From contig CAJQUW010003393.1 of the NCBI GenBank assembly GCA_907163375.1, positions 1 to 64,000 of the forward strand: a stretch of 64,000 nt of DNA. The letters run 5' to 3'. How positions within the stretch are numbered: position 1 is the stretch's first letter; each line of letters opens with the position of its first letter. Below the pieces are notes generated by a model. That model searched no databases. It was not told the DNA's origin and worked only from the letters and a program-made list of their open reading frames with translations. Origin of the DNA: Prostheceraeus crozeri (lineage: Eukaryota > Platyhelminthes > Polycladida > Euryleptidae). A program made the position numbers and the translations under genes. Positions 3,526-38,940 of the stretch are shown piece by piece.

Positions 3526-3583
3526 AACCATTAATAAATGGTGTAAGTGAAATACTTAATAATTAAACAAATTTATCATAATC

Positions 3584-3618
3584 AAACCGAAGGTACTAGG
3601 GCTTCGCGCTTCGCACGA
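3584..3618. repeat. double-hairpin element copy (intergenic)
   Basis: A GC-rich island in AT-rich DNA, related to the CGAACCGAAGGTTC + GGGCTTCGCCC family found ten or more times in this element. This copy has an extended second part with GCTTCGCGCTTCGC and a mutated first stem. It lies 60 bp after the ATPase stop codon. Confidence 0.7.
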
Positions 3619-3625
3619 TTTTGCA

Positions 3626-3710
3626 GATATATATATTTATAATATTTTCCATTATATATATATTTATAATATTTTCCATTATATATATTTTCCATTATAT
3701 ATATATTTTA
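3626..3710. repeat. AT tandem repeat upstream of PolB
   Basis: Three to four copies of a unit close to TATATATATTTATAATATTTTCCAT occupy the gap between the first ATPase and PolB. They may form the AT-rich promoter of the polymerase gene, but no defined promoter consensus is visible. Confidence 0.6.
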
Positions 3711-3763
3711 GATTTTTTTCTCTAAAAAACTAAAACACAAATTTTTTCTTTAAAAAATAAAAA

Positions 3764-8362: not shown

Positions 8363-8463
8363 TTTTCTAATTTCTATTTTCTAAATATAACAATATAACA
8401 ATATAAAAATATAAAATATTATAAAATAAAATAAAAATAATAATATAAAATTATCATATAAAA

Positions 8464-9282
8464 ATGGATAAAGTTAGAGCTGATAATTTTAAAAGAATAA
8501 AACAATTAGACGAATTAATAAAACAAAGAAATATTATGAAAGAAAATCATCTTCAACATAGAATGACAAAAGCTGGTATTCAATCTGATATGTTTGATAA
8601 ATTAAAATTAACTGAAGAAGTAAAAACTGATTATGAAAAAACTGTCGAACCATTTAAAACTCTTGAAAAGGAACTTAATGAAAAACGTGTTGATATAGCG
8701 GATCCTGTACTTAAAACACTATTAGATGACTATGGTTTATTAGAGGCAAACATAGATAAAAAATTACCAAAATCTATGTTATTCGAACATTCTACTTTCT
8801 TTTTAGATAAAAAATTATTTGCAAGATTTTATCTTGGTGGTAAAGAAATATTTCCACAACCTTTACGAGGATTAATTTTTACTCCAGATAAAAAACCTAT
8901 TAGTTTAGATAGAAATTTTGTTGATCTTTTAAGAGGAGCAGATTTAAAAAATTATGCTGTAGAAGATCTAATAAAATATAAAACTATATTAGATAGAGTT
9001 GGCACAGTAAAAACTCTTAGACGTTATAAACAATTAGAAAATTTATTATCAACGGGAGTTAAAGTAGGGAAAGGTTTATCTGAAAAACAGAAAACAGAAA
9101 CAACTGTATTTTTACCAGATGATCCACAAGAATTACTAAATAGATTAAATATTTTAATATCGGCAATAAAAGAAGGACATAATTCTAGTTTCAATGAAAT
9201 TCATGCTATATTGAAAAGACTGTTAGAAAAGAAGATTCTAAATGAAGAGGATTATAAAAGTATAACGAACCGAGTGATCTAG
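8464..9282 (+). CDS. Conserved Polinton/virus-associated protein of unknown function (possibly DUF8207-type)
   Basis: 272 residues. The N-terminal third is charged and helical. The middle (about 120-200) has an LDRNFVDLLRGADL..YAVEDLIKYKTIL pattern that resembles proteins found beside PolB in Polinton-like elements of animals. The C-terminal segment LLNRLNILISAIKEGHNSSF is followed by a predicted helix pair and resembles short C-terminal modules in the same group of proteins. Family assignment is from memory of the pattern, not a search. The ORF stops inside a double-hairpin element (9266-9293), so that insertion may have set the present C-terminus. The function is unknown. Confidence 0.55.
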   Translation: MDKVRADNFKRIKQLDELIKQRNIMKENHLQHRMTKAGIQSDMFDKLKLTEEVKTDYEKTVEPFKTLEKELNEKRVDIADPVLKTLLDDYGLLEANIDKKLPKSMLFEHSTFFLDKKLFARFYLGGKEIFPQPLRGLIFTPDKKPISLDRNFVDLLRGADLKNYAVEDLIKYKTILDRVGTVKTLRRYKQLENLLSTGVKVGKGLSEKQKTETTVFLPDDPQELLNRLNILISAIKEGHNSSFNEIHAILKRLLEKKILNEEDYKSITNRVI

Positions 9283-9293
9283 GACTTCGCCCG
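9266..9293. repeat. double-hairpin element overlapping the stop codon
   Basis: CGAACCGAGTGATCTAGGAC then TTCGCCCG. It is related to copy 1 but with decayed stems. The in-frame TAG of the preceding gene lies within it. Confidence 0.65.
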
Positions 9294-9375
9294 TAGCTGA
9301 AATATGTTGTTGTTTTTAATTTTTTATAAAAAAAATATTTCATAAAAAAATATTTATTTAATTTTTAGTTTAAAA

Positions 9376-10164
9376 ATGTGTTCAGCAGATTTAGACAAAA
9401 TTAATAATCATTTAGAAAATTTGATAGAGATTTTGGGTTCATCAAAATTTAGTACGACGTTAAAAATTATAACAACTACTTCATCACACACTTGTAATTT
9501 AGAACCCATTCTACATTTAGAACAAAATAAAAATTATCAAATTGCATTGACTAGTTTCTCCACATTTAACACTATTCAAAACGTTATCAAAGATGTGAAT
9601 GATCAATTTAGATATTCTACTGATAAAGGTAAAACATGGAAAATACTAACTTTTCTTCCTGGTTCTTACGAAGTTGAAACAATATCAAATGAAATTAAGA
9701 GACATTTAGGTATACCATTTAAAGATAAGAAACAATTACATTTTGCAGTTGAACCGGCAGTTAATAAATTTTCTCTTACTTTAGACGAAAATCATCAAGT
9801 TGATTTTAATCATGATAGATCATTGTCAAAGCTATTAGGATTTAATAAACAAACTTATAGTCAAGGTTATCATTTAAGTGAGAAGATTCCAAAAATAACT
9901 GAAATAAATTCAATTGTTGTACATTGTGACATTATTGAAGGAGGTTATATAAATGGTAAATTATCAAATTTAATATTCAGTTTTCCAGCTTTTACTGTTC
10001 CCATTGGTTATAGATTAAATGTAATTCCACAAACATTAATATATTTCCCTATTACAAGAAAAACTATTAACAACATTAACATTAGAATCACTGATGAGAA
10101 AGGACAAGAAATAAATTTTGGAGGCGAAGAGATTATGATAGATCTTTTGGTTCGAGAGGTATAA
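9376..10164 (+). CDS. Spike-family-like protein, related to the two large proteins at 24300-27245
   Basis: 262 residues, with no signal peptide or membrane segment. The part HLEQNKNYQIALTSF near residue 53 matches the place of LNG(N)WEVGVTQL and LEGEWEVGVSSI in the other virus-like element. The C-terminal part (two short strands, then INNINIRITDEKGQEINFGG) matches their C-terminal QQIDIAIYDDAGALIPF. I see this as one family of beta-rich proteins carried by both elements. It is likely a virion surface or accessory structural protein, but the function is inferred only from its viral context. The gene ends in the first unit of a 21-bp hairpin repeat array. Confidence 0.55.
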   Translation: MCSADLDKINNHLENLIEILGSSKFSTTLKIITTTSSHTCNLEPILHLEQNKNYQIALTSFSTFNTIQNVIKDVNDQFRYSTDKGKTWKILTFLPGSYEVETISNEIKRHLGIPFKDKKQLHFAVEPAVNKFSLTLDENHQVDFNHDRSLSKLLGFNKQTYSQGYHLSEKIPKITEINSIVVHCDIIEGGYINGKLSNLIFSFPAFTVPIGYRLNVIPQTLIYFPITRKTINNINIRITDEKGQEINFGGEEIMIDLLVREV

Positions 10165-10233
10165 ACTCCCGTTCGGGAGGTATAAACTCCCGTTCGAGAG
10201 GTATAAACTCCCGTTCGAGAGGTATAAACTCCC
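10150..10233. repeat. four 21-bp tandem hairpin repeats
   Basis: Four near-identical units GTTCGAGAGGTATAAACTCCC (one has GGGAGG). Each can fold as GGGAG/GAGAG-GTATAAA-CTCCC. They start at the last codons of the preceding gene, whose TAA lies in the first unit. They may act as transcription terminators, 3'-end processing sites or mobile hairpins. Confidence 0.8.
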
Positions 10234-10313
10234 ACGCGAAGCTAGAAAAGTTTAATTTTCTTCTTCTTCTTTAAAAATAAAAATAAAATAAAAATAAATT
10301 TTTTTATTAGAAA

Positions 10314-11078
10314 ATGAGTGTAATGTCTTTAAATAAAAAAAAACTTAAATTTAATCATCATCCAAATTTATCTAATAAAGTTTTGTCAGTTATTTGCGGA
10401 AGATCAGGTTGTGGAAAAACGTATCTATTATTTAAAATTTTAACGACTCCAAATTTTTTGGATTATAACAATCTTATAATTTATACAACAACAGCAGAAC
10501 AACCTGTCTATCAATTTTTAAAATATGGATTTGAAAATAATCTTAAAAAAACAGCAATTGCTTCCCTATTCGAAGAATACGAAAAATCTGAATATGAAGA
10601 AGAAATAAGTTCATGGTGTGAGGAAGCAGTAGAAAATAGTCAGTTAGTAGAATCTAATAAAAATAACCATATAAAGATACAATTAATAGATGATAGTGGT
10701 AATATGCAAGATCCTAGTAAACTAGATAAAACAATGAAACATTGTGTAATTTTTGATGATTGTGTTAATGATAGAAATCAGTCAGTTCAGAGAAATTATT
10801 TTACAAGAGGTAGACATAATAACTGTAGTGTATTTTATTTAACACAAAGTATGTATTCATTAGACGGAAGTGTTATTAGAAAGAATGCAAATATATTTAT
10901 ACTATTTGAAATAAATGCAAGAAACTTAAGTGATTTGCTAAGAGATTTATGTATAAGAGATAAAGATGAATTTAAACAATCGTGTAATAATGCTTGGGCA
11001 AAAGATTATGGATTCATTACAATTAATATTGATAAAAAAATTCATGATAGAGTTATCGAAGATTTGTTTACTGAGTAA
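10314..11078 (+). CDS. FtsK/HerA-type (A32-like) packaging ATPase, second copy
   Basis: 254 residues. P-loop GRSGCGKT at residues 29-36, Walker B CVIFDDC at 144-150, GRHNN at 167-170 and a polar sensor LTQS at 176-179. This layout is closest to packaging ATPases of Polinton-like viruses, more so than the one at 2617-3525. An acidic insertion (EEYEKSEYEEEISSWCEEA) sits between the two Walker motifs. By context it is the best candidate for the motor that fills the capsid, but no capsid gene is visible in this element. It is preceded by the 21-bp hairpin array and an AT-only leader. Confidence 0.8.
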   Translation: MSVMSLNKKKLKFNHHPNLSNKVLSVICGRSGCGKTYLLFKILTTPNFLDYNNLIIYTTTAEQPVYQFLKYGFENNLKKTAIASLFEEYEKSEYEEEISSWCEEAVENSQLVESNKNNHIKIQLIDDSGNMQDPSKLDKTMKHCVIFDDCVNDRNQSVQRNYFTRGRHNNCSVFYLTQSMYSLDGSVIRKNANIFILFEINARNLSDLLRDLCIRDKDEFKQSCNNAWAKDYGFITINIDKKIHDRVIEDLFTE

Positions 11079-11293
11079 TAAAAAATATACAACATAGTGG
11101 TATAATATTTTTTTGTTATTATCAGCTTTAATTTTATCTATTTTTTAAAATATAATATTTGAATTTTGTGGTAACATTGGAATACAGCAAAAACATTTTA
11201 CTGAACAAATTATTTTTTTATTGCTTTGTTGTTTGTAATCTTTTCGTTTAAAGTTTTCTCGTTTAAAGTTTTCTCGTTTAAAGTTTTCTCGTA

Positions 11294-12019
11294 TTAAGTT
11301 TTGTTTAATAAAGTTTTGTCTAATAAAGTTTTTAGCTCTTCTAAAAAAATTTTATCATCACTAAAAGTTTTACCATCCTTTTTATTTTTATCATTAACTT
11401 TTTCTGTCTGTGATTGAAATGATATTTGATTTACTTCATTAGCTATTTGATCAAATTTTTCAATCTCATCTAACGTAATAACATTATCATCACATACTCT
11501 TTGAAAGTAGTAATGTAGTTTATCATAGACTTCTTTAATATGTAAATGCTTAGTTTTTAATGATTTTCGTTTCTTAGTTATTAAAGATTTATCTAACATT
11601 GTAGCAAGTGAAGTTGCAAAAACACCCGTACCTGTTAAAGCTGTAGCAACTACTGGAATTACTAAAACACCTGAAGATATAACAATTGTTAAAGCACCTA
11701 AACTTATTGTTAAGAATATGCCAATTCCTTGTGTTACATTCTTAACTTTAGTCCATTTCTTTCTTAATTTTTTATAATGCTCTAATCTTAATAATAATTG
11801 GGATTCCTTATCTTTCATATAACGTACTCTATCTTTGTGTTTTTCAATATTTAATTCACTTATTTTTAATTGAGATAACGAAGGATATATTCTTGAGGTT
11901 CCTTCCATTTTTGTTCCTTCCATTTCTGAAGTTCCTTCCACTTTTGTTTCTTCCATTTTTAAAGAAATATTATTAGTCACATGATATATTTTAAAAACCT
12001 GAAAAACGTCTAAACTCAT
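11294..12019 (-). CDS. Coiled-coil protein with central hydrophobic hairpin
   Basis: 241 residues on the minus strand, convergent with the ATPase. Met22 (MEETKVEG) may be the true start because residues 1-21 are atypical. A run of EGTS repeats is followed by a coiled coil (about 55-90), two adjacent hydrophobic segments (about 98-140, GIGIFLTISLGALTIVISSG and VIPVVATALTGTGVF), a basic helix and an acidic tail. The shape suggests a membrane-active or membrane-anchored protein. Similar architecture occurs in proteins of other animal Polinton-like elements, but I cannot name the family with confidence. Confidence 0.6.
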   Translation of the reverse strand: MSLDVFQVFKIYHVTNNISLKMEETKVEGTSEMEGTKMEGTSRIYPSLSQLKISELNIEKHKDRVRYMKDKESQLLLRLEHYKKLRKKWTKVKNVTQGIGIFLTISLGALTIVISSGVLVIPVVATALTGTGVFATSLATMLDKSLITKKRKSLKTKHLHIKEVYDKLHYYFQRVCDDNVITLDEIEKFDQIANEVNQISFQSQTEKVNDKNKKDGKTFSDDKIFLEELKTLLDKTLLNKT

Positions 12020-13366: not shown

Positions 13367-15244
13367 GTGATGATTTTCGAGAAAACGACAGAGTTAGAAT
13401 TTTGGACGTTTTCGGCTGTAGCGCCCAAAGGAACCATCGGATGGGAAAACGGAGGCCAGATTCTGAATCAGCGTGAAATTCTGCATCGGTATGGTGAGTT
13501 TCAAGTCAATCGGAGAGAAAAAATTTTCAACATTTTTCGAAAAACGACAGAGTTAGAATTTGGGACGTTTTGGTCTGTAGCGCCCAAACGAAGCATCGGA
13601 TGGGAAAACGGAGGCCAGATTCGGATTCAGCGTGAAATTCTGCATCGGTATGGTGAATTTGAACGCAATCGGAGAGAAAAAATTTTCGCTGACGTCCCCC
13701 CCCCTGCGCCAAACTTCCATTTTGCTTCTAGTGGACGGATTTTGTCGTGCAATAGCTCGTTTGAAAGCTAAGAGTAAGAAAAATTCACTGAAAGAATCGG
13801 CTTGTTCATATCTGTCTTCGTTTAGATGTGAGACGCCATTTAAGATTTTGGGACATTGGCGAAAAACGACAGAGTTAGAATTTGGGACGTTTTGGTCTGT
13901 AGCGCCCAAACGAAGCATCGGATGGGAAAACGGAGGCCAGATTCGGATTCAGCGTGAAATTCTGCATCGGTATGGTGAATTTGAACGCAATCGGAGAGAA
14001 AAAATTTTCGCTGACGTCCCCCCCCCTGCGCCAAACTTCCAAATTTGCTTCTAGTGGACGGATTTTGTCGTGCAATAGCTCGTTTGAAAGGTAAGAGTGA
14101 GACAAATTCACTGAAAGAATCGGCTTGTTCATATCTGTCTTCGTTTAGATGTGAGACGCCATTTAAGATTTTGGGACATTGGCGAAAAACGACAGAGTTA
14201 GAATTTTTGACGTTTTGGGCTGTAGCGCCCAAACGAACCATCGGATGGGAAAACGGAGGCCAGATTCGGATTCAGCGTGAAATTCTGCATCGGTATGGTG
14301 AGTTTCAAGTCAATCGGAGAGAAAAAATTTTCAACATTTTTCGAAAAAACGACAGAGTTAGAATTTGGGACGTTTTGGTCTGTAGCGCCCAAACGAAGCA
14401 TCGGATGGGAAAACGGAGGCCAGATTCGGATTCAGCGTGAAATTCTGCATCGGTATGGTGAATTTGAACGCAATCGGAGAGAAAAAATTTTCGCTGACGT
14501 CCCCCCCCCTGCGCCAAACTTCCAATTTTGCTTCTAGTGGACGGATTTTGTCGTGCAATAGCTCGTTTGAAAGGTAAGAGTGAGACAAATTCACTGAAAG
14601 AATCGGCTTGTTCATATCTGTCTTCGTTTAGATGTGAGACGCCATTTAAGATTTTGGGACATTGGCGAAAAACGACAGAGTTAGAATTTTGGACGTTTTG
14701 GGCTGTAGCGCCCAAACGAACCATCGGATGGGAAAACGGAGGCCAGATTCGGATTCAGCGTGAAATTCTGCATCGGTATGGTGAGTTTCAAGTCAATCGG
14801 AGAGAAAAAATTTTCAACATTTTTCGAAAAAACGACAGAGTTAGAATTTGGGACGTTTTGGTCTGTAGCGCCCAAACGAAGCATCGGATGGGAAAACGGA
14901 GGCCAGATTCGGATTCAGCGTGAAATTCTGCATCGGTATGGTGAATTTGAACGCAATCGGAGAGAAAAATTTTCGCTGACGTCCCCCCCCCTCTGGAGAG
15001 CTAGCTTTGATCTTGGCTTCTAGTGGACGGATTTTGTCGTGCCATAGCTCGTTTGAAAGCTAAGAGTAAGACAAATTCACTGAAAGAATCGGCTTGTTCA
15101 TATCTGACTTCGTTTAGATGTGAGACGCCATTTAAGATTTTGGGACATTGGCGAAAAACGACAGAGTTAGAATTTGGGACTTTTTGGGCTGTAGCTTCAA
15201 AACGAAGCATCGGATTGGAAAACGGATTTCAGATTTGGAATTAG
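13367..15244. repeat. left inverted arm of the provirus: tandem repeats (161/322-bp subunits, 483-bp period)
   Basis: The phrase ACGACAGAGTTAGAATT recurs eight times (about 13385, 13546, 13866, 14188, 14349, 14671, 14833, 15157). Spacing alternates between about 161 and 322 bp and gives a 483-bp higher-order period. Long subunits carry an extra block with a CCCCCCCC run and GTGGACGGATTTTGTCGTGC. Copies are almost identical. ORFs in all frames here are repeat artefacts. An inverted, shorter version lies at 35393-35985. Confidence 0.9.
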
Positions 15245-15258
15245 CTTGATGTTATTGT

Positions 15259-16969: not shown

Positions 16970-16976
16970 ATGCAAT
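16970..16976 (+). promoter_or_regulatory. ATGCAAT, variant of the octamer-like promoter word
   Basis: Lies 31 bp before the ATG at 17001, in the same window as the other six copies (29-46 bp). It has one mismatch to ATGCAAA. Confidence 0.4.
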
Positions 16977-17000
16977 GAATGGGTTAGATAAAGGGCGATC

Positions 17001-17742: not shown

Positions 17743-17750
17743 ATGCAAAT
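17743..17750 (+). promoter_or_regulatory. ATGCAAAT promoter word, 46 bp before 17789
   Basis: Exact octamer in a short intergenic gap, directly after the RING-like gene and before the core protein gene. See the corresponding finding for the set. Confidence 0.6.
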
Positions 17751-18156: not shown

Positions 18157-18164
18157 ATGCAAAT
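18157..18164 (+). promoter_or_regulatory. ATGCAAAT promoter word, 29 bp before 18186
   Basis: Exact octamer in the 31-bp gap between the core protein stop and the packaging ATPase start. Confidence 0.6.
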
Positions 18165-18185: not shown

Positions 18186-18803
18186 ATGGATTTCAGACTT
18201 CAATGTGATAAAGTTCTGACTGTATCAGGTCCATCTCATGCAGGTAAAACTGTTTTCACGCTGAATTTATTGGATAAAAGAAGGGAGTTGTTTAAGGAAC
18301 CTATCAATCGAGTGATTTGGTGTTATGGTATTTATCAACCGTCCCTGTTTCAGGAATTGCAAAGTCGCAATTTTATTCGACATGAAGGAATTATTCCAGT
18401 GGATAAACTTCAGTCTAATGATGTTGTTGTATTGGATGATTTATTAAAAGAAAGTAAGAATTCAAAAGATGTTACAGATATGTTCACTCGTGCAGCACAC
18501 CATAAAAGGTGTTTTATCATCTATATCACACAAAATTTGTTTCCTGATGGAAAAGAAGCTCGTACACGAAACCTGAATACACACTATTATGCTATTTTCA
18601 AGAATCCGCGAGATAAAAGTCAATTTGAAATTTTAGCGCGACAAGTTGCACCCAGAGGATCAAAAGCCTTAATTGAAATTTTTCAAGCAGCTACTGAAAA
18701 ACCATACGGTTACTTATTCATTGACTTTACGCAAGAGTGTCCGGAAGAATTTAGATTTCGAAGTGATATTTTGAAAACTCCCATGATTATCTACAAACTA
18801 TGA
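18186..18803 (+). CDS. FtsK/HerA-type genome-packaging ATPase
   Basis: 205 residues from ATG 18186. The frame is open from 18138, but that earlier start would place the promoter word inside the gene. P-loop GPSHAGKT at residues 15-22, Walker B VVVLDD at 80-85, and a sensor-like YITQN at 113-117 after AAHHKR. This is the compact form typical of Polinton packaging motors. The stop overlaps the next start (ATGA at 18800-18803), suggesting co-transcription. No lesions are seen in this gene. Confidence 0.85.
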   Translation: MDFRLQCDKVLTVSGPSHAGKTVFTLNLLDKRRELFKEPINRVIWCYGIYQPSLFQELQSRNFIRHEGIIPVDKLQSNDVVVLDDLLKESKNSKDVTDMFTRAAHHKRCFIIYITQNLFPDGKEARTRNLNTHYYAIFKNPRDKSQFEILARQVAPRGSKALIEIFQAATEKPYGYLFIDFTQECPEEFRFRSDILKTPMIIYKL

Positions 18804-19494: not shown

Positions 19495-19710
19495 ATGAAG
19501 CAGATGTGTTGCTTGCCATGTAATGAGCCGCCAGAGGTGAATGTCGTTGTCACTTGCACTTGCTGCGCCAGCTCTCATAATGAAACCCCTAAGCAATGTG
19601 AACACGATCGCAAAACCGCTAAAGCTAAATGCTGCAGTTGTTGTAAATGTAGAAAGGCAAGAAAACAAACAGATGAGAAGGAGGAAAAAGAGTCAGTCGT
19701 CATCGACTGA
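19495..19710 (+). CDS. Small cysteine-rich protein overlapping the integrase start
   Basis: 71 residues with 13 cysteines (CCLPC, CTCCASSHNE, KCCSCCKC) and a charged C-terminus. It starts one base after the preceding stop codon and overlaps the integrase start in another frame. The clustered Cys pairs suggest metal binding. It is not recognised, and could be an overprinted accessory gene or chance. Confidence 0.4.
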   Translation: MKQMCCLPCNEPPEVNVVVTCTCCASSHNETPKQCEHDRKTAKAKCCSCCKCRKARKQTDEKEEKESVVID

Positions 19711-20760
19711 ACGTTTGAAGTCAATCTATTATGATGTAAAACATCCGGCAGGATTTGCATCTATCAAGAAATTATCAAAAGCGAGTGGTCTTCCACAATC
19801 ACAAGTGAAACGATGGTTAAAGGGTCAGGCTACCTATACACTCCACAAACAAGCGAAAAAGAAGTACCGCACCCGCCATTATATTGTTCATGACATCGAT
19901 GAACAGTGGCAGCAGATTTGTGCGATGTCGCCTCCATTTCAAAACATAACTCGGGCAATAATTTTATTTTAACCGTCATTGATATTTTCTCGCGTTATGC
20001 GTGGGCTCAACCTTTAAAAACTAAAGAAGGGAAAGGAGTAGCAAAAGCATTCCAAACAATTTTTCGAGAAGGTCGCATTCCAAAAAGAATTCAGAGTGAT
20101 CAAGGAAAAGAGTTTGAAAATCAGCATGTGAAAAGATTATTTGAGAGGCATGACATTGAGTTGTTTAGTGTAAAGAGTGCTTATAAAGCTGCACTCGTTG
20201 AACGTTTTAATCGCACATTAAAAAATCGCTTGTGGCGACATTTTACTGCCAACTTGACACAAAATTGGACAAAGGTTCTACAAGATACACTCCATGCCTA
20301 CAATCACTCTATCCATCGTTCTATTGGACTCAGACCAGTAGATGTAAATGCTGACAATGCAGATAAAGTGCGCGAATCATTCCAACGTAAACGCACTCAT
20401 GTGAAAAGTGATGTGAAAATTGGTGATAAAGTTCGTATCTCAAAAGTGAAAAGTGTTTTTGCTAAAGGGTACCTTCCGAATTGGACAGAGGAGGTATTTA
20501 CAGTATCAAGGATTAATCAAAAAGACTCTCCAACCACCTACAAGTTGAAAGATTACGATAATGAAGAAATTGAGGGTAGCTTTTACCGCGATGAGATTGA
20601 GGTAGTCACTGAAAGTGAAACATATTTGGTAGAGAAAATCATTCGATGTAAAAAACGGCAAGGTGAAGAATGGTGTCTTGTTAAATGGACTGGTTATCCT
20701 TCAAGTATGAACTCTTGGATCCGTCGTGCCGACATCTTTCATCTAAGTGATCGACAGTGA
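19673..20760 (+). CDS. int: Retroviral-like integrase with chromodomain, frameshift near 19909
   Basis: Integrase of the rve superfamily that inserts the viral DNA. The frame from 19673 has a basic start, an N-terminal helical DNA-binding part (KLSKASGLPQSQVKRWLKGQ) and reaches DIDEQW. The frame then changes by one base at about 19909, just before the first catalytic Asp (DLCDVAS). The rest (to 20760) is intact: second Asp in IQSDQGKEF, Glu in ALVERFNR 34 residues later, an SH3-like segment (VKIGDKVRIS..KGYLPNWTEEVF) and a C-terminal chromodomain (YLVEKIIRCKKRQGEEWCLVKW). The chromodomain may steer insertion to modified chromatin. The break removes this copy's activity. Confidence 0.9.
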
Positions 20761-20763
20761 TTC

Positions 20764-20770
20764 ATGCAAA
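20764..20770 (+). promoter_or_regulatory. ATGCAAA promoter word, 38 bp before 20802
   Basis: In the 41-bp gap after the integrase stop, before the second core-like protein and the capsid gene. Confidence 0.6.
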
Positions 20771-20801: not shown

Positions 20802-21257
20802 ATGAATCCAACTGCCTCATTTTATTCACGACCCTCCTATGTAAGTGGTGGAGGACAAATTTACATGGGCGCTCGCCGCCAACGTGAAGGTAGCATACTT
20901 GGCGCACTGAAATCTGTTGTAGCACCTCTCATATCCAATGTCGGTAGATCTTTAAAACGAAATGTTTTAAGTAATGCCGTTGGCTTTGCTGGTGATGTTG
21001 CTAGTGATCTTTCCAGAGGTAGAAGTTTTAAGAGCAGTTTGTTGAATCGTGGGAAGGAACGCGGTTTAAAAACATTGAAGCAGACCTTTGCTGGTGTTAC
21101 TCAAGGAAAGAAATCACCTAAACGAATGAATAAAGGAAGGAGGAAACATCGCGGAGCTGGTAAGGTGCGATCTTCAGTCAAAAGGCATTCACGCAAACGT
21201 CGCAGACGCTCTAATCATTCATCAGGCGCTAAACGACGACGCTGCTATAACTTCTAA
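20802..21257 (+). CDS. Basic virion core/minor structural protein
   Basis: 151 residues. The N-terminus has Ser/Gly/Tyr-rich sequence (SYVSGGGQIYMGARRQREGS). A middle amphipathic alpha part follows (SILGALKSVVAPLISNVGRSLKRNVLSNAVGFAGDVASDL) and an extremely Lys/Arg-rich tail. This layout is common for the X/core-type proteins next to the capsid gene in adintoviruses and Polintons. Its likely roles are DNA condensation and bridging to the capsid; the middle part could be membrane-active. It ends two bases before the capsid gene start. Confidence 0.7.
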   Translation: MNPTASFYSRPSYVSGGGQIYMGARRQREGSILGALKSVVAPLISNVGRSLKRNVLSNAVGFAGDVASDLSRGRSFKSSLLNRGKERGLKTLKQTFAGVTQGKKSPKRMNKGRRKHRGAGKVRSSVKRHSRKRRRRSNHSSGAKRRRCYNF

Positions 21258-21259: not shown

Positions 21260-22530
21260 ATGGAGTGTAAAACTTCCGGTTTTTGTTTGTTTGATCAACA
21301 AGCCATACAGACAGATATTCTTAGTTCAAGTATTGTAGATTATCATCCTCGAACAGCTGAGAATGCTGGCCCCATTGAATTTGTTATTCCTGGTGGTAGC
21401 GATGACTACATAGATTTGAGTTATGCGATGCTTGATTTGAGGTTTAGAATTCAGCAAGCAGATGGAACTGCTATTGACGATGCACATAAAGTTGGACTGA
21501 ACAATTTACCATTGACTACATTACTTCGCGATGTTTCTCTAACGATTGGAGAGCAGCAGGTGGAAGGTGGTCAAAGCGATTATCCCTATAAATCATATTT
21601 CAATCACAGTTTCATCCAGCAGCACAAAAAAGTCATATGGAAGCCATGGGATGGTACAGAGATGAAGCAGGAAAATTTGACGTTGAAACAAACAGTGGCT
21701 TTGTAAAGCGATCTGCTATGATTAAAGATAGTAAAGTATGTCAGCTATATGGTCCGCTGAATTTAGACTTCTTTAGACAGTCAAAGTTTTTACTCTGTAA
21801 TACCAGCATGCGACTCAAGCTGACATTGAATAAGCCTGAATTTGCGCTGAATGCATTTGCTAAAGTTGACAATTTTAGAATTCATGTGGAAGATATTGCA
21901 CTTTACATTCGTCGAGTAGTACCGAATCCAAGTGTCATTAGAGGACATGCTGAAGGTCTTAACCGCCAAAATGCCATTTACCCCGTTCAGCATACAAAGC
22001 TTCTCACCTTTACAATTCCGAAAGATCAAAAGAGTTTCATGAAAGATGGCCTCTTTCCATCGGAAGCACCGAAGCTCCTCATGGTGGCAATGGTTGAAAA
22101 TGATGCATTTAATGGTAATATAAAGAAGAATCCTTTCAATTTTAAACACAATCAGTTAAGTGAAATTGCTTTACGTGTAAATGGTGTGAGTCATCCTGGT
22201 CCACCCTACAAACCAGATTTTGCTGCGGATCAATTTATGCGCAGTTATGTTGATTTTATGGATGTCTTTGGCTTTTACAATACGGATGACACCAACGGAC
22301 TTACTATGAAAGAGTTTAAGAGTGGATATACTATTTATGCATTTGATTTGACTGCTGACAGCGATATTAGTGCACCCTATCGTCAAGCGAACGTGCCTCA
22401 TAATATTCGTTTGGATTTGACGTTGAAAAGAACACTACCTGAGACGATCAATGTATTAATATATGCAGTCTTCGATTCAAATATTGAAATTACAAAGTAT
22501 CGTGACGTGATTCTTCAGTATAATCGTTAA
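21260..22530 (+). CDS. Double jelly-roll major capsid protein (F54H12.2-like), frameshift near 21626-21631
   Basis: Major capsid protein (hexon-like) of Polinton/adintovirus type. The first frame (21260-21706) carries the opening strand (VDYHPRTAENAGPIEFVIPGG), DDYIDLSYAMLDLRFRI and the loop LLRDVSLTIGEQQVEGGQSDYPYKSY. The second frame (to 22530) continues with the GWYRDEAGKFD segment through SKFLLCNTSMRLKLTL, RHVE/alpha strands and the C-terminal VLIYAVFDSNIEI. The switch point is an A6 run at 21626-21631, a typical site for a one-base indel. Homology to the C. elegans F54H12.2 type is recognised from the overall pattern. The stop codon overlaps the protease start (TAATG). Confidence 0.85.
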
Positions 22531-22991
22531 TGAGTTGGTTGACTGCTGACGATATTAAGACTAAAGTGCAGCGTAATGCAGACGAAGCGACGTTGAAAGC
22601 TTTCGATAATGTCTATTCACTCGATACCTTACCACCTGCAGTAAATCACTATCCCATCTTTATTGTGCTAAACACTCATTCGCAGAATTTAGGTGGTCAG
22701 CATTGGAAAGCGATCTTTATTGGAGAAGACCGACGTGGTGAACTATTTGACTCTCTTGCTCAACCTCCAAATATACCAACACAGCAGTGGTTGAGAAAAC
22801 ATACGCGTCAATATCAGCGAAATGAACGCATACTACAACATCCACTTTCATCAACGTGTGGTGCTTTTGTACTGTACTTCATCTTAAAACGTTTACATGT
22901 ATCTCGATTTGCATCTGTTATTCAAAACTTTTCATGTAATCCATCCTCTAATGAAAAAATGATTTGTAAGTTCTATCATGATTTGAAATAA
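22530..22991 (+). CDS. Adenovirus-type (adenain/Ulp1-like) maturation cysteine protease
   Basis: 153 residues. Catalytic triad by position: His58 in GQHWKAIFI, Asp74 in LFDSL, Cys110 in SSTCGAF, with the oxyanion Gln103 in ILQHP. In Polintons this enzyme cleaves capsid and core precursors during virion maturation. It starts on the last base of the capsid stop codon, so the two are in one transcript, and the gene ends in an AATAAA. No lesion is seen. Confidence 0.85.
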   Translation: MSWLTADDIKTKVQRNADEATLKAFDNVYSLDTLPPAVNHYPIFIVLNTHSQNLGGQHWKAIFIGEDRRGELFDSLAQPPNIPTQQWLRKHTRQYQRNERILQHPLSSTCGAFVLYFILKRLHVSRFASVIQNFSCNPSSNEKMICKFYHDLK

Positions 22992-23022
22992 AAACATCAT
23001 GTTGGAAAAATTGTTTTTTATT
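22987..23022. terminator. convergent polyadenylation signals
   Basis: AATAAA on the plus strand at 22987-22992 overlaps the protease stop. TTTATT at 23017-23022 gives AATAAA on the minus strand overlapping the stop of the TBP-like gene. Only about 25 bp separate two convergent transcription units. Confidence 0.65.
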
Positions 23023-23563
23023 TTACAATCCGCTGGGTACGTACACACTCGATGAGATAGTCTAGGATCACATTTGCTTGTACATGAGATTTTAGTCCAG
23101 TAATGATCACTTTACTATTATGAAAGATTGCCACATGCACAGGTAACCAACAACTAATGAGAGCTGCAGGAAAAAGTTCGGGTTCATAACACAAATTGTA
23201 ACTGCTGGTACGAATCTTCAAAAATGATACACTTTCACTCAATTGAGTAGAGATCACCATATTGTCCACAGTCAGATTCGACATCACACACCTCTCCCTC
23301 TTCCATATCCGACGTAGTAGTCTTTGTAGCTCTAAGCGCATTGACTGCGCCGATGAATGAGAAAGGGCGCCGAGAATCTGTACAGTCCCATTTGGGAAGA
23401 GTTGAAGATTCCGTGAATTGTTCATCTTCACCACTAACATTTGAGGTCGGCCCGGGTAATACTTGCTGTTTGGAAGGTGTTGGTGTAATGTTGTGAGATC
23501 GATTTTGGTGTAGAGTCTGAAGCGACGGAGAATGTTGACGATGGTGTAGCGATGGCGCTTCAT
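23018..23563 (-). CDS. TATA-binding-protein-like protein (two TBP lobes)
   Basis: 181 residues from ATG 23563 (the frame is open farther upstream). Two repeats match the TBP saddle. Lobe 1 (about 9-85) has a strand, IDLTTLHQHL, NSKYYPGRPQMLVVKM, a strand ending LFPNGTVQILGAL and an amphipathic helix. Lobe 2 (about 96-175) has NMVIST, then CYEPELFPAALI, HVAIFHNSKVIITGLKS and a final helix. YEPELFP and KVIITG are the most TBP-like words. Phe at 56, 131 and 147 lie where DNA-kinking phenylalanines are expected, while the fourth position is replaced. TBP recruits RNA polymerase to promoters, so the virus may carry its own promoter-recognition factor. The gene overlaps the downstream part of the PC4-like ORF in another frame. 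Confidence 0.72.
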   Translation of the reverse strand: MKRHRYTIVNILRRFRLYTKIDLTTLHQHLPNSKYYPGRPQMLVVKMNNSRNLQLFPNGTVQILGALSHSSAQSMRLELQRLLRRIWKRERCVMSNLTVDNMVISTQLSESVSFLKIRTSSYNLCYEPELFPAALISCWLPVHVAIFHNSKVIITGLKSHVQANVILDYLIECVRTQRIVK

Positions 23564-23885
23564 GATGAAAAAATGAGTAAATTGAGCGATGTACCTTCCT
23601 TTTATACTTTTCCCAACTACCTTGATGAAATGTGAAGTTAGTATGAAGTTGGGAATGATAGAGTTGAATTCGCCGATTGTTGACGCGCAACCAGATGTGA
23701 TTTCCAATACGTGAATGTCTTTTCATATAGAAGTATTTCAAATCCTTCATGATATGATGTAGAGATTGAAAATGACGATAAGATAAAGCAAACTCTCTTC
23801 TCACATTTCCAGTTGAATCTTTGAAATAGACGTTTCGATCATGATCCGTTTCAATACGTTGTAGGGAATCTAATTTCCAACTCAT
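23235..23885 (-). CDS. PC4-like protein, copy 1, with a long tail overlapping the TBP-like gene
   Basis: 216 residues. Residues 1-105 are a clear paralogue of the next gene (shared words W.LDSLQ.I, RDxNVHFK/DRNVYFK, HIMKDL, WEKY+R.+HRSI). The pattern strand-strand-strand then LxxRxFxxLxxIM, repeated once (GNHIWLRVNNRRIQLYH ... WEKYKR), resembles the single-strand-binding fold of the transcription cofactor PC4; this is a shape argument, not a search. Residues 106-216 are Ser/Thr/Pro-rich with an acidic end (EEGEVCDVESD) and are read in a different frame from the TBP-like gene over about 330 bp. The tail may be a genuine overlapping segment or the result of a lost stop. An ATTTGCAT word lies 35 bp upstream. 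Confidence 0.55.
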   Translation of the reverse strand: MSWKLDSLQRIETDHDRNVYFKDSTGNVRREFALSYRHFQSLHHIMKDLKYFYMKRHSRIGNHIWLRVNNRRIQLYHSQLHTNFTFHQGSWEKYKRKVHRSIYSFFHHEAPSLHHRQHSPSLQTLHQNRSHNITPTPSKQQVLPGPTSNVSGEDEQFTESSTLPKWDCTDSRRPFSFIGAVNALRATKTTTSDMEEGEVCDVESDCGQYGDLYSIE

Positions 23886-23907: not shown

Positions 23908-24264
23908 TTAAGATTTGCATAGTAGGGCGATGAACTCACGACGAATAAATGTCATGATGGAGCGATGTATGTATCTTCTATACTTCTCCCAATTGTATTT
24001 GCGAAATGAGAAACAGTTTGCGGAATGAGAATGGTAGATTTGAATTTCATTTCTGTAATGTTGAAGCCAAACTTGATCACCCAAGGAGATGAATCTTAAT
24101 GTTTCAAAATATTCCAAATCCCTCATGATATCATTGAGGTTGACAAATTGTCGCCATGTTAATGTAATACCTCTTGATGTATGACCATGAGAATTTTTGA
24201 AGTGTACGTTTCCATCACGATCAACTCTGATATATTGTAGAGAGTCCAAAATCCAAGTCTTCAT
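23908..24264 (-). CDS. PC4-like protein, copy 2 (tandem paralogue)
   Basis: 118 residues from ATG 24264 (the 24276 start is not ATG). It aligns over its full length with copy 1: TWILDSLQYIRVDRDGNVHF, RGITLTWRQFVNLNDIMRDL, GDQVWLQHYRNEIQIYHS, WEKYRRYIHRSI. The arrangement suggests two PC4-like half-domains in one chain. Expected role: single-stranded DNA binding in transcription or replication. It starts only 36 bp from the divergent plus-strand gene at 24300, so the two share a very short promoter region. Confidence 0.55.
   Translation of the reverse strand: MKTWILDSLQYIRVDRDGNVHFKNSHGHTSRGITLTWRQFVNLNDIMRDLEYFETLRFISLGDQVWLQHYRNEIQIYHSHSANCFSFRKYNWEKYRRYIHRSIMTFIRREFIALLCKS
23913..23920 (-). 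promoter_or_regulatory. ATGCAAAT promoter word (minus strand), 35 bp before 23885
   Basis: Reads ATTTGCAT on the plus strand, so the motif faces the PC4-like copy 1 gene. It lies just inside the 3' end of the neighbouring paralogue's ORF. Confidence 0.55.
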
Positions 24265-24270: not shown

Positions 24271-24277
24271 ATGCAAA
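24271..24277 (+). promoter_or_regulatory. ATGCAAA promoter word, 29 bp before 24300
   Basis: In the 36-bp divergent gap between PC4-like copy 2 (minus) and the spike-family gene (plus). AATATAAAA directly before the ATG is a possible TATA-like element, but it lies too close to the start codon. Confidence 0.55.
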
Positions 24278-24299: not shown

Positions 24300-25697
24300 A
24301 TGTCGTTTTATCATATTTTGCTTAGCAATGCGGCTACAAAGAGATTTGCTAGTAATCGAGCCGCACTCTTTTCTACTCCCATTGATCATGCACAATAGCT
24401 AAATGGAAATTGGGAAGTGGGTGTCACTCAACTTGTTTATAGCAACTGTGTCTATACTTTTGATCATGAGGTGATGACTATTAATATGAGACGTACAGCT
24501 GCTTACCAATGTGAAAAGGGCTGCCGAGTATACATTCCACAGTGGCCAAAGAAAGATCTCTTATCATGTAAAAAGTTTATATATGATTTCTTGAATAAAG
24601 CGTGTAAACATATTGTCCAATTTACTCCGCACAATGATGATCATAATTATGTACATCATGTAGTTGAGAAAGATTGGATTGTTGGTTTAAGTCCAAGTTT
24701 AAGAAATGATTTAGGTTACCTCGCTAGCGCCTTAACAAGCTATGATAATTTTAACGTTAATTACCACATAAGTGGTCATAAACAGTTAATATATCGAGAG
24801 GAAGCTTATTATGTAGATCTTATTCCAAAAAATGAGAAGACGTTGGTGAAGAAGATTGTGATTAAGCCAAGAAAGACAAACATGACTCCTGAAACATTAT
24901 TGAAGAAATTTAATTATCTCCTTCGAGTTGATGGTAAACAAGTGGCAACATTGACTTATATCAAATCATCTAATCATATTGCAATAAGTAAATTAAATGA
25001 TGATGATCTAGTATTAGTTTGTTCAAAAGATTTTCATCAGTTCTTACGACATCGTTCTGCAGCTGTTCATGGAAAATCTGATATGCAACATTTACCATGT
25101 GAAAGGCCAAATCAATTTGATACAGAATGGACCGTATCTTTATACAGAAAGTATGTAGAGCCTTTAGGTGGTATCTTACATGAAACAAGAGTGTTGATAC
25201 CTCGCATTATTACTTCAGTTAAATTGGTTGTAGATTTTTTAAATGAAGTGATTAATGAGCAACATATTTCATTTTCTGAAAAAGAAGGTGCTTTGTCTCT
25301 CACTATAAGTGGAAAAGGTATTGAACTAATTATGGATAAAACTCTAATGGACATTTTGGGTTTTGATCAAAATATCTTTAAAAGTGGTACTGTAACCAAA
25401 GCTAGCGCAGACATGTCGCTATCGCGTCGTATTAACTATTTTCCGATATATTCCAATATTGGTGAAGATGTACGTGTGGGAGATGTTGAAGCTCCATTGC
25501 TAGCAATGATACCATACCAGCCAAAAAGCTGCAGTATTTTATCTGAGCATACTTTCAAGAAAGTGCATTATACAAAGCTGAAATCAAACTACATCCAACA
25601 AATTGATATTGCCATTTATGACGATGCTGGTGCGTTGATTCCTTTTCATAAAGATGCTGTGACAAGTATCACACTCCATTTCCGAATGAAGAGTTAA
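24300..25697 (+). CDS. Spike-family protein 1, in-frame TAG at 24396-24398
   Basis: 465 codons. The ORF from ATG 24300 is in frame with the long ORF but is interrupted by TAG at 24396, in the context CAA TAG CTA. Directly after the stop comes LNGNWEVGVTQL, a motif also present at the corresponding place in the next gene, so the gene truly starts upstream of the stop. The body is beta-rich with a repeated pattern (DLIPKNEKTLVKKIVIK; FLNEVINEQHISFS..LTISGKGIELIMDKTLMDILGF). The C-terminus QQIDIAIYDDAGALIPF...LHFRMKS is shared with 9376-10164. It is probably a virion surface, penton or fibre-like protein; the role is inferred. A stop followed by CTA is known to favour readthrough in some viral mRNAs, but a simple nonsense mutation is at least as likely. 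Confidence 0.6.
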
Positions 25698-25703
25698 TGC
25701 AAA
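25697..25703 (+). promoter_or_regulatory. ATGCAAA promoter word, 40 bp before 25737
   Basis: Starts on the last base of the preceding stop codon. The distance to ATG 25737 fits the other copies, which supports 25737 rather than 25707 as the start. Confidence 0.55.
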
Positions 25704-27424: not shown

Positions 27425-30400
27425 TTATGCTAAGACGTCTCCTGAATGTGGTAGTGTGAGTTTAATTCTTTTGGGTGGTGGTATGTTTGTGTCAGGATGT
27501 CCATGTGGAAGAGATATGTTGTGTTCTAACCAGCACCTCTTATCCTCCCATGCTGAAAGCGCCCGTTTCCTAAAAGTATGAGTTTTGATCTCATGCGACT
27601 TAGATTTTAAGATTGTCATATTGACGAACGTTATATTCTTATTACTATAGGCTTTCCTGAAATTTTTATGTTTCATGTTAGAGACCAATGATCTTGTTAT
27701 GCCTTTAGCGCGCTTAATACTATCGTCGCTATCCTTCAATTTCATACTGTACATTTTTGGACGGAGGAGAATCATTTCATCTATTTCCTTCCCTGCTGTC
27801 TCATCCTTAAAGCAGCCAAGTTTTGCCTTATTTTTGATGGAGTAGAGTGGGTGATCAGTAGGATAATTTGATGTGTCAAAATATCTTTCTAAAGATTTTC
27901 CTACTTCAATGAAATTTAAATCTTTTTGAGTGGTAATACCTAAGAAGAAACTATCTGTATCACCATCCAACAAACGAACCTCTTTTACGAGAGGACATGG
28001 TTTTAGTATTTTATAAAAGAGTTGGTACATTTCAAGCTTAGAGTAATCTAGTACAGCTTGGCCAATATAGATGGGTTTGCACAACTCAACTTCAGATTTT
28101 ATCATTTTAATACCTACAAGGTCCTCATCGATAATGTCTCTATCGATGAATAGAGGTGATGAGACCAATTTCTTAAATTTTGTAACATCATTGACTAGTT
28201 TATAGTTTACACGCTTTCTAACATCCTCCATCGTCTTACCAAATAGACTATTATTCTTATACTTATAAAAATCTTTTTCAAAATTATTTTGGGCTAGTGC
28301 ACGTTTCTGGCTGTTGCTATCAATATATGCTTTGAGGAAGGCTTTCTGTCTAAATTTAATAATGCGGTGAACTCTTTTTAAAATCATACCCATTTCTAAA
28401 TAAAATTTTAAGATGCTAAAGTGGACTAGATAGTTTTCCTTATCATACTGGGTGAGTAAAAGTTTGCGGCAAGGCTTATAGTCGGGTTGACCGCATGATT
28501 CTAAATCTTTATGAAATTGTTTCATAAAGTCGGAAAACATATCTTTGGTCACTTCACCTGATTCGGGTGCGAGTGGAAAATCTACGGTTTTATGTTTAAT
28601 ATTATTTGGATAGATTAGATCTATCTCAAAATAATATCCCCAATCACCTTCATCTGGAATTGCTAGTATGTTAGAAGGGTTGGAGAGATGCTGAATTTCA
28701 CTATCATCTAACCAGCTCAACTCAGAGTGACGGAGTGGTTTGGATAGTGAACTACCATATAAATTATTTTGGTCATAATACTTAAGATGAGTCTGATCAT
28801 CGCCTACTAATTTTGATTTTAACCTATGTTTATTTACAAATGTGAGACCACCGCGAATTCCTCGCTCAAATAAATTATACATCTCTGGATCTTGTAAGAG
28901 ATGAATGGTCTCACCAGTCATTTTAAAAGCAGACTTAAAGGACATGGCTGGCAGACTGACAAAGTGGACGGGATCTAACTTATCTTCTTCTAATGCCACT
29001 CGTCGAAACTCCTGAAATACATCAGCCAGCAAAAATACATCTAACTTAAGACAGGCAATCATATATTCGCCAAATGTATGGCAGTCAAATTTTATCCATG
29101 CATCTTGTGAATGATCATAATCTTCGGTCTTACACTCTGCGCCGCTCAAATCATTTTTAAATTTATCTATGGGCGGAAGAGAAGTCTCGCCGAGTTTACT
29201 AATCGCATCAAAATATGCATATGGAAAGACTCCTTTCCGTGTGATGACTTCATCGGTTAGATTTGGATATTGTTTCTTAAGATTTTGTGTTAGTGGAAGA
29301 GACTTTAGATTTTGTACGAGAGAGGCCAGTGATGCAGTCATGAATTGGTAGGAATCTAAAAATTTTATATCAAAATAGACCGTCTTATTTTCTTTAGTTT
29401 TATCGACAGGCACTTTTGCTGTCATGGCCATAAACTTCTCTCTCGTTTGTGCTATTACATCAAGCTTCCACTCTTTCATTTGACCTAAACCTCCTTTTAT
29501 TATCATATGGCTGTCGTAGCCCTTGAAATTATGGAAAATGACGGGTAATGTACGCCGTTTCATCCTAAGTGAAAAATTGCATTTTGAACATAGTGCGTTT
29601 CTAAATTTACCAGTGATGTGATCATGGTCGCGCACTTTCTTAATCTTATCATCATCAAATGTTTTACTACATTTGGGGCAAACGTTGCAACTATCAAATT
29701 TTGCTTGATCATCTGCCGTCATATGCAATGATCTGCGATAGAGTTCACCATCATACTTTTGTTGAAATTTTACAGCCTGTTCGAGGAATTGTAGGAATTG
29801 GTAAATACAATCCTCACCTTGCCAGACGTGCATTTTATTTTTTCTATTTTGGAAATGGTGATGCCATACTTCATAGCAGGATATGGCTGCTGGCTTGTGG
29901 ATGATATCATCGATATAGCATTCGATGTCAGCATAGATGACACGAAGAGGACTTAGTTCATCGCCATTCTCTCTATATGAAAAGTCCTTATCTTTGGGCA
30001 TGCGCTCCATTTGTAGTTTACCTCGCTTACACCATTCGTAATGAGTTTCAAATCTATTTTTACTCCTAAAGTTGCGAATGCATCTGTCACAGTAATAAAT
30101 CTCTGATGAGCTAGAATTTCTTAAGTGGTGGTATAAGCGAGAAATTTTGGGAATACCGCAGTAGTGCCATTCCTCACTATCATCCTGTCTTACTAATAAA
30201 AGGTTGACAACGTGGTCATAACAACTCGAACGCGAGTTGTAGCGGACACCCTTCAATCCCTTTTCCTAAACATGGAGAACTATTTTGATGTTGTTCAATT
30301 TTTCAAATTTTTCTATATCTTTAATTTTCATATCTTCACTATTGCAGTCATCAAACTTTAATTCATTCTCCCACTGTTGATACTTACTCTTACGGTATCG

Positions 30401-31273
30401 GCTATACTGTACATCATTATAGTGGAGAATGGAGAGGACGGCATACTTAAAACATTGCGATTCGCAATCTACAGAAATAACTGCTGCTTTATTTCTTAAA
30501 TTTTTCGGAAGTTTAAAGGAGCCCCGTCCAGAGTAGTTCTCTAATAAAGTGATTTTAATCATGGCGGTCTCAATACCATCAAAAACGAGACCAATATCAC
30601 GCTCGTTAAATTTATCTATGTTTAATTTTAACCCTTGGATATGAAAATTTATCCAAGAGTCACAGTCTACAACTTCGGTTGCAGGAGAGGAGGGTATGTG
30701 AAACTCCAACCTCTCTACTATTTGACCAGTATGGTGGTCGATTTTTACATATTTTATTTTGAGATAGATGAGCGCCTTCATTCTAAAATTGACTAAATTG
30801 TTGAAGAGCGCACCAATCAAAGATGAATTTTGATGAAACCATTCTTCAAAGTCAGTAATGGTTTCTGAGGATTCCATCTGGTAGTTCCTCACTAAATTAT
30901 TTATCGACACTTCAGAGAGTCGGATAGAGGAGGTGCTAGTATAACTATCGTCACTGTGTGTATGTCAACGTCTATGTGAAGATAGTTCAAAATGTGACTC
31001 AAAAGACTGAATGCATAAATCGCAAGAAAAGGAGACATCGTTAACAGAATCATCCCCACCTTCGGAGATTGATGCTGACTTAGGTCTACAAACACCTCGC
31101 TTGATGTGTCGGACGAGATCACGCTTCCTCGTGAAGATGTGTCCACAGTCAGCACATTCCCGATCGTTGCATTCCCGCGACAATGTTGACATGGAGTCGC
31201 TGTTGTTATCCAACTCGCTCGAGATGGGACTGGTATCACCTGAAAGAGAAATCATTCTTTCATCTCTGTTCAA
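27425..31273 (-). CDS. polB: Protein-primed-type family B DNA polymerase with N-terminal zinc fingers; in-frame TGA (30965) and TAG (30266)
   Basis: One reading frame runs from ATG 31273 to 27425 with stops at 30965-30967 and 30266-30268. Segment 1 has two zinc-finger motifs (CADCGHIFTRKRDLVRH; CDLCIQSFESHFELSSHR). Segment 2 (30964-30269) has the PolB N-terminal domain also found alone at 17001-17411, and CESQCFKYAVLSIL. Segment 3 (30265-27425) has a further finger (CDRCIRNFRSKNRFETHYEWC), ExoI (ADIEC), a CPKC..DHDH..CSKCN zinc cluster, ExoII (FKGYDSHM), ExoIII (CLKLDVFLLAD), motif A (YYDQNNLYG), motif B (KNNSLFGK) and motif C (GDTDSFF). The AT-rich polymerase also begins with a zinc finger, supporting one gene. 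All catalytic motifs are intact in segment 3. The promoter is at 31605-31652. Confidence 0.85.
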
Positions 31274-35392: not shown

Positions 35393-35985
35393 CTAGTGCT
35401 CCGATTGAGCTGGAAATACACCATTTCCATGTAGAATTTGACACTGAATCCGAATCTGGCCTCCGTTTTCCCATCCGATGCTTCGTTTTGGCTCCACAGT
35501 AGGCAGCCATCGCAAAAATTCTAACTCGTTTTTTCGAAAAATGTTGAAAACTTTTTCTCTCCGATTGACTTGAAACTCACCATGCAGATAGAGAATTTCA
35601 CGCTGATTCCAAATCTGAAATCCGTTTTCCAATCCGATGCTTCGTTTTGAAGCTACAGCCCAAAACGTCCCAAATTCTAACTCTGTCGTTTTTCGCCAAT
35701 GTCCCAAAATCTTAAATGGCGTCTCACATCTAAACGAAGACAGATATGAACAAGCCGATTCTTTCAGTGAATTTTTCTCACTCTTACCTTTCAAACGAGC
35801 TATTGCACGACAAAATCCGTCCACTAGAAGCAAAATTGGAAGTTTGGCGCAGGGGGGGGGACGTCAGCGAAAATTTTTTCTCTCCGATTGCGTTCAAATT
35901 CACCATACCGATGCAGAATTTCACGCTGAATCCGAATCTGGCCTCCGTTTTCCCATCCGATGCTTCTTTAACAGCTACCAGCTGA
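35393..35985. repeat. right inverted arm of the provirus (tandem repeats, inverted)
   Basis: The reverse complement of the left-arm units, including AAATTCTAACTCTGTCG, the CTAGAAGCAAAATTGGAAG block and the GGGGGGGG run at about 35854. The arm is shorter (about two subunits) than the left one. It ends in GATGCTTC at about 35967; gypsy gag sequence follows. Confidence 0.85.
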
Positions 35986-37715: not shown

Positions 37716-38907
37716 ATGTCGGATGGTGAAATGGCAGCGGCTGCAGTTATCATTGCTGCAGTTAAAAAGAAGAAGATGAAGCGAAGAAGAACATGTTGGG
37801 TTCGGAAGTGGATTGCGAGGAGGGATGCATTCGGTGCATATACCACGTTAATGGCAGAGCTTGCACTTGAGGATAGAGGACAATACCGCAATTTTCTAAG
37901 GATGACTCCAGAAAACTTAGAAGAGATTCTGTGCAAAATTGGATCAACCATTTCCAGACAAGACACTCAGATGCGGGCCGCGATTCCAGCGAAAGAAAAA
38001 TTATCGGTTACCCTTCGGTTTCTGGCTTCAGGTAATCAAACTTTCTGTCTTATTCTATTACATGTGAGAAAAATTGTATTCTTTAATTTTGAATGATTGA
38101 TCCTATAGGTGCACCACGTCGCATAAGATAATGTTCTTGTATATAACACAGATTTAATCATGTGTATTTTTTGTCATCAGAAAGAAGTAGGCCATGATAC
38201 ATAAGCAAGCCAGCATATCCCAAAAGTACTTTGAATTTTTCACTTTACTTTCTATCAGGGTTGTGTTTTGGTACAGTTACAGCTACAGTTCAATTGTAAT
38301 CATATTTTGATGGTTCAGTTACAGTTACACTTTAATCATAATTTGATGGAACAGTTGCAGTTGCAGTACCCCCGGAGTCTGCTACGGTTCATTTGCGGTA
38401 CACTTAACAAAATTGAAGTGTAACACATCCCTGCTTTCTATGCAATCGTCATTTTCAGGTGATTCCTATGCCTCACTGGCCATGTTGTTCAGAATTCCAC
38501 AATGTACAATTTCTGGCTTTGTACCTGAAGTATGTGCTGCTATATTCGAGCAAATGAAATGTGATTTTTTGAAAGTAAGTGAAAGTTAATAATAATAATA
38601 ATGATGATGATGATGATGATTGATGATAATTGATGATGATTGATGATGATTGATGATGATTGATTGATTGATTGATGATTGATTGATTTATTGATTTATT
38701 TATTGATTGATTGATGATTGATTGATTGATGGTTGATTGATTGATTGATTGATTGATGGTTGATTGATTGATTGATTGATGATTGATTGATTGATGATTG
38801 ATTGATTGATTGATTGATTGATGATTGATTGATTGATGATTGATTGATTGATTGATGATTGATTGATGATTGATTGATTGATGATTGATTGATTGATTGA
38901 TTGATTG

Positions 38908-38940
<33 letters not shown>

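Follow-up and report, generated by a model that had tools for sequence, protein, structure and literature searches.

A TATA-binding-protein-like gene and a conserved start-site word in a 23-kb Polinton of the flatworm Prostheceraeus crozeri

Introduction

Virus-coded TATA-binding proteins (TBPs) are known from giant viruses, mirusviruses and herpesviruses, all with genomes far larger than that of the element described here. Among large DNA viruses, TBPs were known in three families, to which four more have been added (PMC11410667), and ASFV possesses a transcription machinery of its own (PMC10881513). TBP is found in 59% of mirusvirus genomes (PMC10132985), and its occurrence is sporadic in the mirusvirus-like elements of an alga (PMC10675990). 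The TBP and TFIIBs encoded by Chrysochromulina parva virus BQ1 are said to redirect host RNA polymerase II (PMC12085832). In KSHV, ORF24 is a TBP mimic that acts at TATTWAA late promoters and has polar residues at positions that are hydrophobic in TBP; the TFIIB contact of TBP requires glutamates, which ORF24 lacks, and ORF24 carries extra domains (PMC12529657).

Here we describe a TBP-like gene on a Polinton-type element in a 64,000-nt stretch of genomic DNA (the window; contig CAJQUW010003393.1, positions 1 to 64,000) from the polyclad flatworm Prostheceraeus crozeri. An earlier note on this DNA, made from the letters alone, had called the gene and knew of no described case in the Polinton/adintovirus group. 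This still holds for the titles, abstracts and passages covered in the open-licence literature, in which no Polinton or adintovirus was seen to carry a TBP or the PUR-like pair described below. To our knowledge, the gene lists of Polintons contain neither TBP nor such a pair.

Results

The Polinton element and its genes

The Polinton-type element occupies positions 13201 to 35969 (22.8 kb) and is inserted in a Gypsy-like gag, with its breaks set by three element-free copies of the gag target (L029-L031). The insertion lacks 48 bp of the target, and no target-site duplication was observed at the element breaks, which, judged on this one copy, may reflect an accident of insertion or of later deletion. 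The left terminal inverted repeat (13382 to 15249) consists of repeated units of about 160 nt, with higher periods of 323 and 483 nt. The right arm (35410 to 35969) is short and matches positions 14392 to 14835 over 444 nt at 96%.

On the plus strand, the element encodes a packaging-ATPase-like protein (18186 to 18803; Pox_A32, E 0.024, a weak match below the cut-off), an integrase in two ORFs (19541 to 20760; rve, E 1.4e-9, above the cut-off, with a C-terminal Chromo domain, E 3.5e-7), a basic protein that we take to be pVI-like (20802 to 21257), a putative major capsid protein (MCP) in two ORFs (21260 to 22530) and an adenain/Ulp1-like protease (22530 to 22991; Peptidase_C48, E 0.0016, below the cut-off). 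The pVI-like and MCP names are presumptive, following Polinton biology and, for the MCP, also its position. The putative MCP has at least 300 homologues at E <= 1e-3, among them an unbroken relative of 425 aa (P0067), and it matched no named capsid profile and no PDB sequence. Another capsid homologue, P0068, is 87% identical and is recorded at NCBI under a Pseudomonadota MAG; it is probably animal DNA that was misbinned. PolB lies on the minus strand in two ORF pieces (27425 to 30910). It has no direct Pfam PolB match, aligns at 29% over 627 aa (E 2e-70) with the PolB of a neighbouring element (PF03175, E 1e-14), and is probably of the protein-primed type. Of 11 ORFs of the element that were compared with Pfam, none is an RNA polymerase.

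The window copy is damaged, with the integrase and capsid genes each spread over two frames by apparent frame breaks and with an internal stop in the frame that begins at 24300. The TBP gene is intact, unlike these split neighbours. In 7 of 7 older copies the genes follow the order INT, pVI, MCP, PRO, TBP, PURa, PURb, ORF24417. The place of TBP beside the protease, for which the earlier note had proposed a search in related genomes, was thus found in the window and in all seven older copies. It does not extend to a second TBP-bearing Polinton family of different gene order (L045; C13380:62606-71712), in which the TBP-PUR pair stands beside a PolB-like gene, named by eye. L045 also carries, by eye, a relative of the window ORF 16383.

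Two further features of the window lie outside the Polinton. Positions 1998 to 12019 hold a separate AT-rich virus-like element (about 23-26% G+C) with two A32-like ATPases (E 2.6e-10 and 3.2e-6) and the PolB (PF03175, E 1e-14) to which that of the Polinton is 29% identical, and positions 38473 to 39240 form a long simple repeat whose minus strand encodes (N/H)QSI-type peptides.

The TBP-like protein

The TBP-like protein comprises 181 aa, encoded on the minus strand at 23018 to 23563, with two lobes at about residues 6-86 and 97-176 and no N-terminal extension, and is thus a bare TBP core. The two pseudo-repeats first recognized by eye were recovered by Pfam, in which the 181-aa ORF matches PF00352 in two stretches with 73.9 bits against a curated cut-off of 22.9, and the expected saddle is present in the modelled structure of the protein. 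Its identity to cellular TBP is about 19-26%. The assignment of a TBP in a Polinton setting is backed by profile and fold as well as by gene order and by the copies described below.

We aligned the window copy and 61 protein homologues from outside the host genome, all with PF00352, to human TBP. The contact positions for DNA, TFIIB and TFIIA are those of the yeast and human complexes, and counts refer to the 62 sequences or to those with letters at the position. Lobe 2, which contains the YEPELFP noted earlier, is near-canonical: the human residues N253 (N101 here, 62/62), V255 (V103, 62/62), F284 (F131, 61/62), P285 (P132, 62/62), F301 (F147, 62/62) and T309 (T155, 61/62) are retained, and Val297 is replaced by His in 62/62. 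Lobe 1, which the note had called weaker, is altered throughout the family. F193 has become P40 (Pro in 58 of the 59 with letters), L208 has become Q54 (58/62), V216 has become Q62 (62/62) and T218 has become L64 (56/62), positions that would lie opposite the centre of the 8-bp site; the first Asn of this lobe is retained in all 50 with letters. As the note had counted, three of the four DNA-kinking phenylalanines are present, Phe193 being the exception. Its loss weakens the claim of ordinary TATA binding and leaves the claim of TBP homology untouched.

The TFIIB-facing loop (YEPEL) is retained, with E127 in 61/62, E129 in 62/62 and Leu at L130 in 55/62. The TFIIA-facing Glu is altered (E187 to K34, Lys in 46 of the 59 with letters). 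In all, 16 alignment columns are invariant across the 62 sequences. From the retained TFIIB loop and the changes in lobe 1 and at the TFIIA site, we infer that the Polinton TBP should still hold TFIIB and should not recognise a plain TATA box as TBP ordinarily does.

A word shared by gene starts

The word ATGCAAA occurs eight times in the whole element, and six of the eight lie 29-46 nt upstream of a gene start, on the strand of that start. Five are on the plus strand: at 17743 to 17749, 46 nt before ATG 17789 of a basic protein (intact in 4/4 alignable of the seven older copies); at 18157 to 18163, 29 nt before ATG 18186 of the ATPase-like gene (4/4 alignable); at 20764 to 20770, 38 nt before ATG 20802, where the pVI-like/MCP/protease block begins (5/6 alignable); at 24271 to 24277, 29 nt before ATG 24300 (6/7); and at 25697 to 25703, 40 nt before ATG 25737 (5/5 alignable). 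The sixth, on the minus strand at 23914 to 23920, lies 35 nt before the PURa start (23885), within PURb coding, and is the least conserved (4/7). By coordinates, five of the six are located between ORFs, and that at 25697 overlaps a stop codon by one base. A variant, ATGCAATG, is found on the plus strand at 16970 to 16977, 31 nt before ATG 17001; it is alignable in one of the seven older copies, where it reads ATGCAATT. The word thus stands ahead of 6 of 15 gene starts, and its exact form is absent at the other nine (16383, 17001 with the variant only, 19131, INT, MCP, PRO, TBP, PURb and PolB).

ATGCAAA is present in 5 of the 15 100-nt upstream stretches, a level that no 7-mer reached in 300 shuffles; shuffles matched the best word in 3% of cases for 6-mers and in 19% for 8-mers, so that the enrichment is weaker at the former length and absent at the latter. 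With the first start list, four of the eight occurrences fell at starts, and 14 of 5000 random window sets and 19 of 5000 random-ATG sets were as concentrated. With the refined list the figure was six of eight, and 0/5000 were as concentrated in both controls, two start codons having been refined after the motif was known and start 25737 having been entered as 25736 in the test. Across the seven older copies, 33 of 42 site-copies are alignable and ATGCAAA is intact in 28 of these; 226 of 231 motif positions are conserved, versus 640 of 907 spacer positions. Motif and spacer differ strongly in conservation at 17789, 20802 and 24300 (spacer 41-71%) and little at 25737 (spacer 92%), at the ATPase-like gene (18186; 83%) and at PURa (80%). 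In the 9.1 kb of L045, the sole ATGCAAA lies within an ORF and none is at a start; PURa is the only one of the word-bearing window genes found there.

The TBP gene itself is preceded by a canonical TATAAAAG box on the minus strand (23599 to 23606), 43 nt before the start codon and inside PURa coding, which is retained in 16/17 and 24/28 copies examined, L045 included.

That the Polinton uses the TBP it encodes as a promoter-selective initiation factor is, in our judgement, about as likely as not. A less favoured explanation, unlikely but to be taken seriously, is that ATGCAAA is an octamer for a host POU-domain factor and that the viral TBP serves in general initiation elsewhere, for instance at TATAAAAG, which precedes the TBP gene in both families. 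The consensus octamer of host POU factors is ATGCAAAT, and the eighth base after ATGCAAA is T in 3/6 window sites and 22/33 older-copy sites. Octamers function in both orientations, whereas the six start-site words all point the same way and keep within a narrow range of distances from the start codon, as would a core element, and they are preceded by T in 4/6 window sites and in 27/33 older-copy sites, so that the word reads TATGCAAA.

It is improbable that the protein competes with host transcription by binding promoters or TFIIB without initiation and so shuts off host genes. The Lys at the TFIIA-facing position, the lost phenylalanine and the bare ORF would suit such a competitor; the retained TFIIB-facing loop and the conserved start-site word that the neighbouring genes carry as their own speak against it.

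PUR-like neighbours and gene overlap

Two genes on the minus strand adjoin TBP. PURa (23235 to 23885) comprises a PUR-alpha/PC4-like domain (about 23553 to 23885) and a 107-aa tail, and PURb (23908 to 24264; 118 aa) comprises two beta-beta-beta-beta-alpha repeats. The two proteins are 43% identical and contain tandem PUR/Whirly-type repeats. The PUR-alpha/PC4/Whirly single-strand-binding fold is the closest known system, and searches matched neither protein to the PUR or PC4 families by sequence.

The PURa tail (23235 to 23558) covers about 107 TBP codons in another frame; it is exactly 107 aa long in 21 of the 28 copies examined and of equal length in a family with 48% TBP identity. The tail and TBP are thus likely overlapping genes. 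At least nine of the outside homologues have, by eye, an in-frame stretch like the window's GKSIKGRYIAQFTHFFIM ahead of the TBP start, which in another frame encodes the last part of the PURa domain; the overlap would therefore predate the window's family. Some of the fixed lobe-1 residues lie under this overlap, and overprinting could hold them.

PUR-like proteins bind single-stranded DNA, which, together with the TBP-PUR pair beside the PolB-like gene of L045, would fit a TBP-like protein that bends DNA for replication or integration at the terminal repeats, with no part in transcription. Such a protein would have no need to keep its TFIIB-facing residues, and we rate this role as more improbable still than host shut-off.

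Genomic copies and selection

In the host genome (2.05 Gb), the Polinton TBP gene recurs at least 150 times with 98-100% identity, alongside older copies with 83-86% protein identity. No internal stop was found in the best 150 of 11,851 candidates, which were picked by protein score and are hence biased. A stop lies inside TBP in 14 of 147 rows, with two host TBP exons and a TRF-like locus set aside; nine of those rows were fetched and all nine are Polinton copies. The dN/dS ratio is 0.22-0.40 between 8 young and 9 older copies, 0-0.14 within the young copies and 0.15-0.55 among the older ones, in a set whose selection by protein score favours intact copies. The host has TBP exons of its own, which share 85-86% identity with human TBP and are distinct from the Polinton gene. 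A further host locus related to TBP (L010; C3829) is 42% identical to human TBP and is perhaps a TRF gene.

A relic captured from the host TBP gene and now without a role could show such stops and a dN/dS of up to 0.55, but it is very improbable given the stop-free best copies, biased as they are, the young-versus-older dN/dS, the 16 invariant columns and the distinct host exons.

Discussion

Under the initiation-factor reading, host TBP would act in an early step by reading the TATAAAAG box, one of ordinary type, that precedes the viral TBP gene. The viral TBP would then read the G-C-containing (T)ATGCAAA, with its near-canonical lobe 2 and a lobe 1 altered at residues directed to the centre of the site, where the word has G-C, would recruit host TFIIB through the YEPEL loop and thereby host RNA polymerase II, and would switch on the gene blocks that bear the word, namely the capsid block, the ATPase-like gene and others. 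The PUR-like proteins would assist through single-strand binding, either at the promoters concerned or on replicating DNA. We hold more tentatively, and with somewhat less than even confidence, the full form of this proposal, in which a 23-kb animal Polinton works with a promoter code of its own, its bare-core TBP recognises a G-C-centred TATGCAAA through a re-specified lobe 1, TATAAAAG read by host TBP drives early TBP, and polymerase II is handed to the capsid genes. The dedicated late-transcription system suggested in the earlier note gains support from the shared start-site word, and it is still something we infer.

Even an element of 23 kb, these results suggest, can supply a factor that marks its gene starts. 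Should the full proposal hold, no smaller DNA virus-like element that has a TBP-type initiation factor dedicated to it, with promoters to match, would be known to us, and minimal elements would be able to choose promoters themselves and rely on the host for the polymerase. The Polinton TBP and its start-site word may thus form a compact system for how TBP changes its DNA word, and they bear on a possible Polinton past of mirusvirus and giant-virus TBPs.

The element resembles Polintons, Mavericks and adintoviruses in its chromodomain integrase, PolB, protease-like and putative capsid genes and inverted repeats. Its TBP shares PF00352 with the cellular eukaryotic and archaeal proteins and differs from them in residing on a mobile virus-like element, in lacking an N-terminal extension and in having, in most sequences, Pro, Gln, Leu and Lys where cellular TBP has Phe193, Val216, Thr218 and the TFIIA-facing Glu. 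Structural matches in BFVD include Heterosigma akashiwo virus, the B263R homologue of abalone asfa-like virus and mimivirus relatives, with 7-21% identity among the 50 matches listed. Giant viruses and mirusviruses likewise encode the TBP fold (B263R of ASFV, a mirusvirus core gene, CpV-BQ1), in genomes far larger than the 22.8-kb Polinton, and CpV-BQ1 is a precedent for a virus said to steer host RNA polymerase II with its own TBP and TFIIB. The vTBP of beta- and gammaherpesviruses, exemplified by KSHV ORF24, is alike in its TBP fold, nuclear DNA virus setting, polar substitutions and deviating TATA word, and it provides a precedent for polar-for-hydrophobic exchanges in a viral TBP that acts at a deviant late box. 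ORF24 lacks the TFIIB glutamates and carries extra domains, whereas the Polinton protein is a bare core in which the glutamates are retained.
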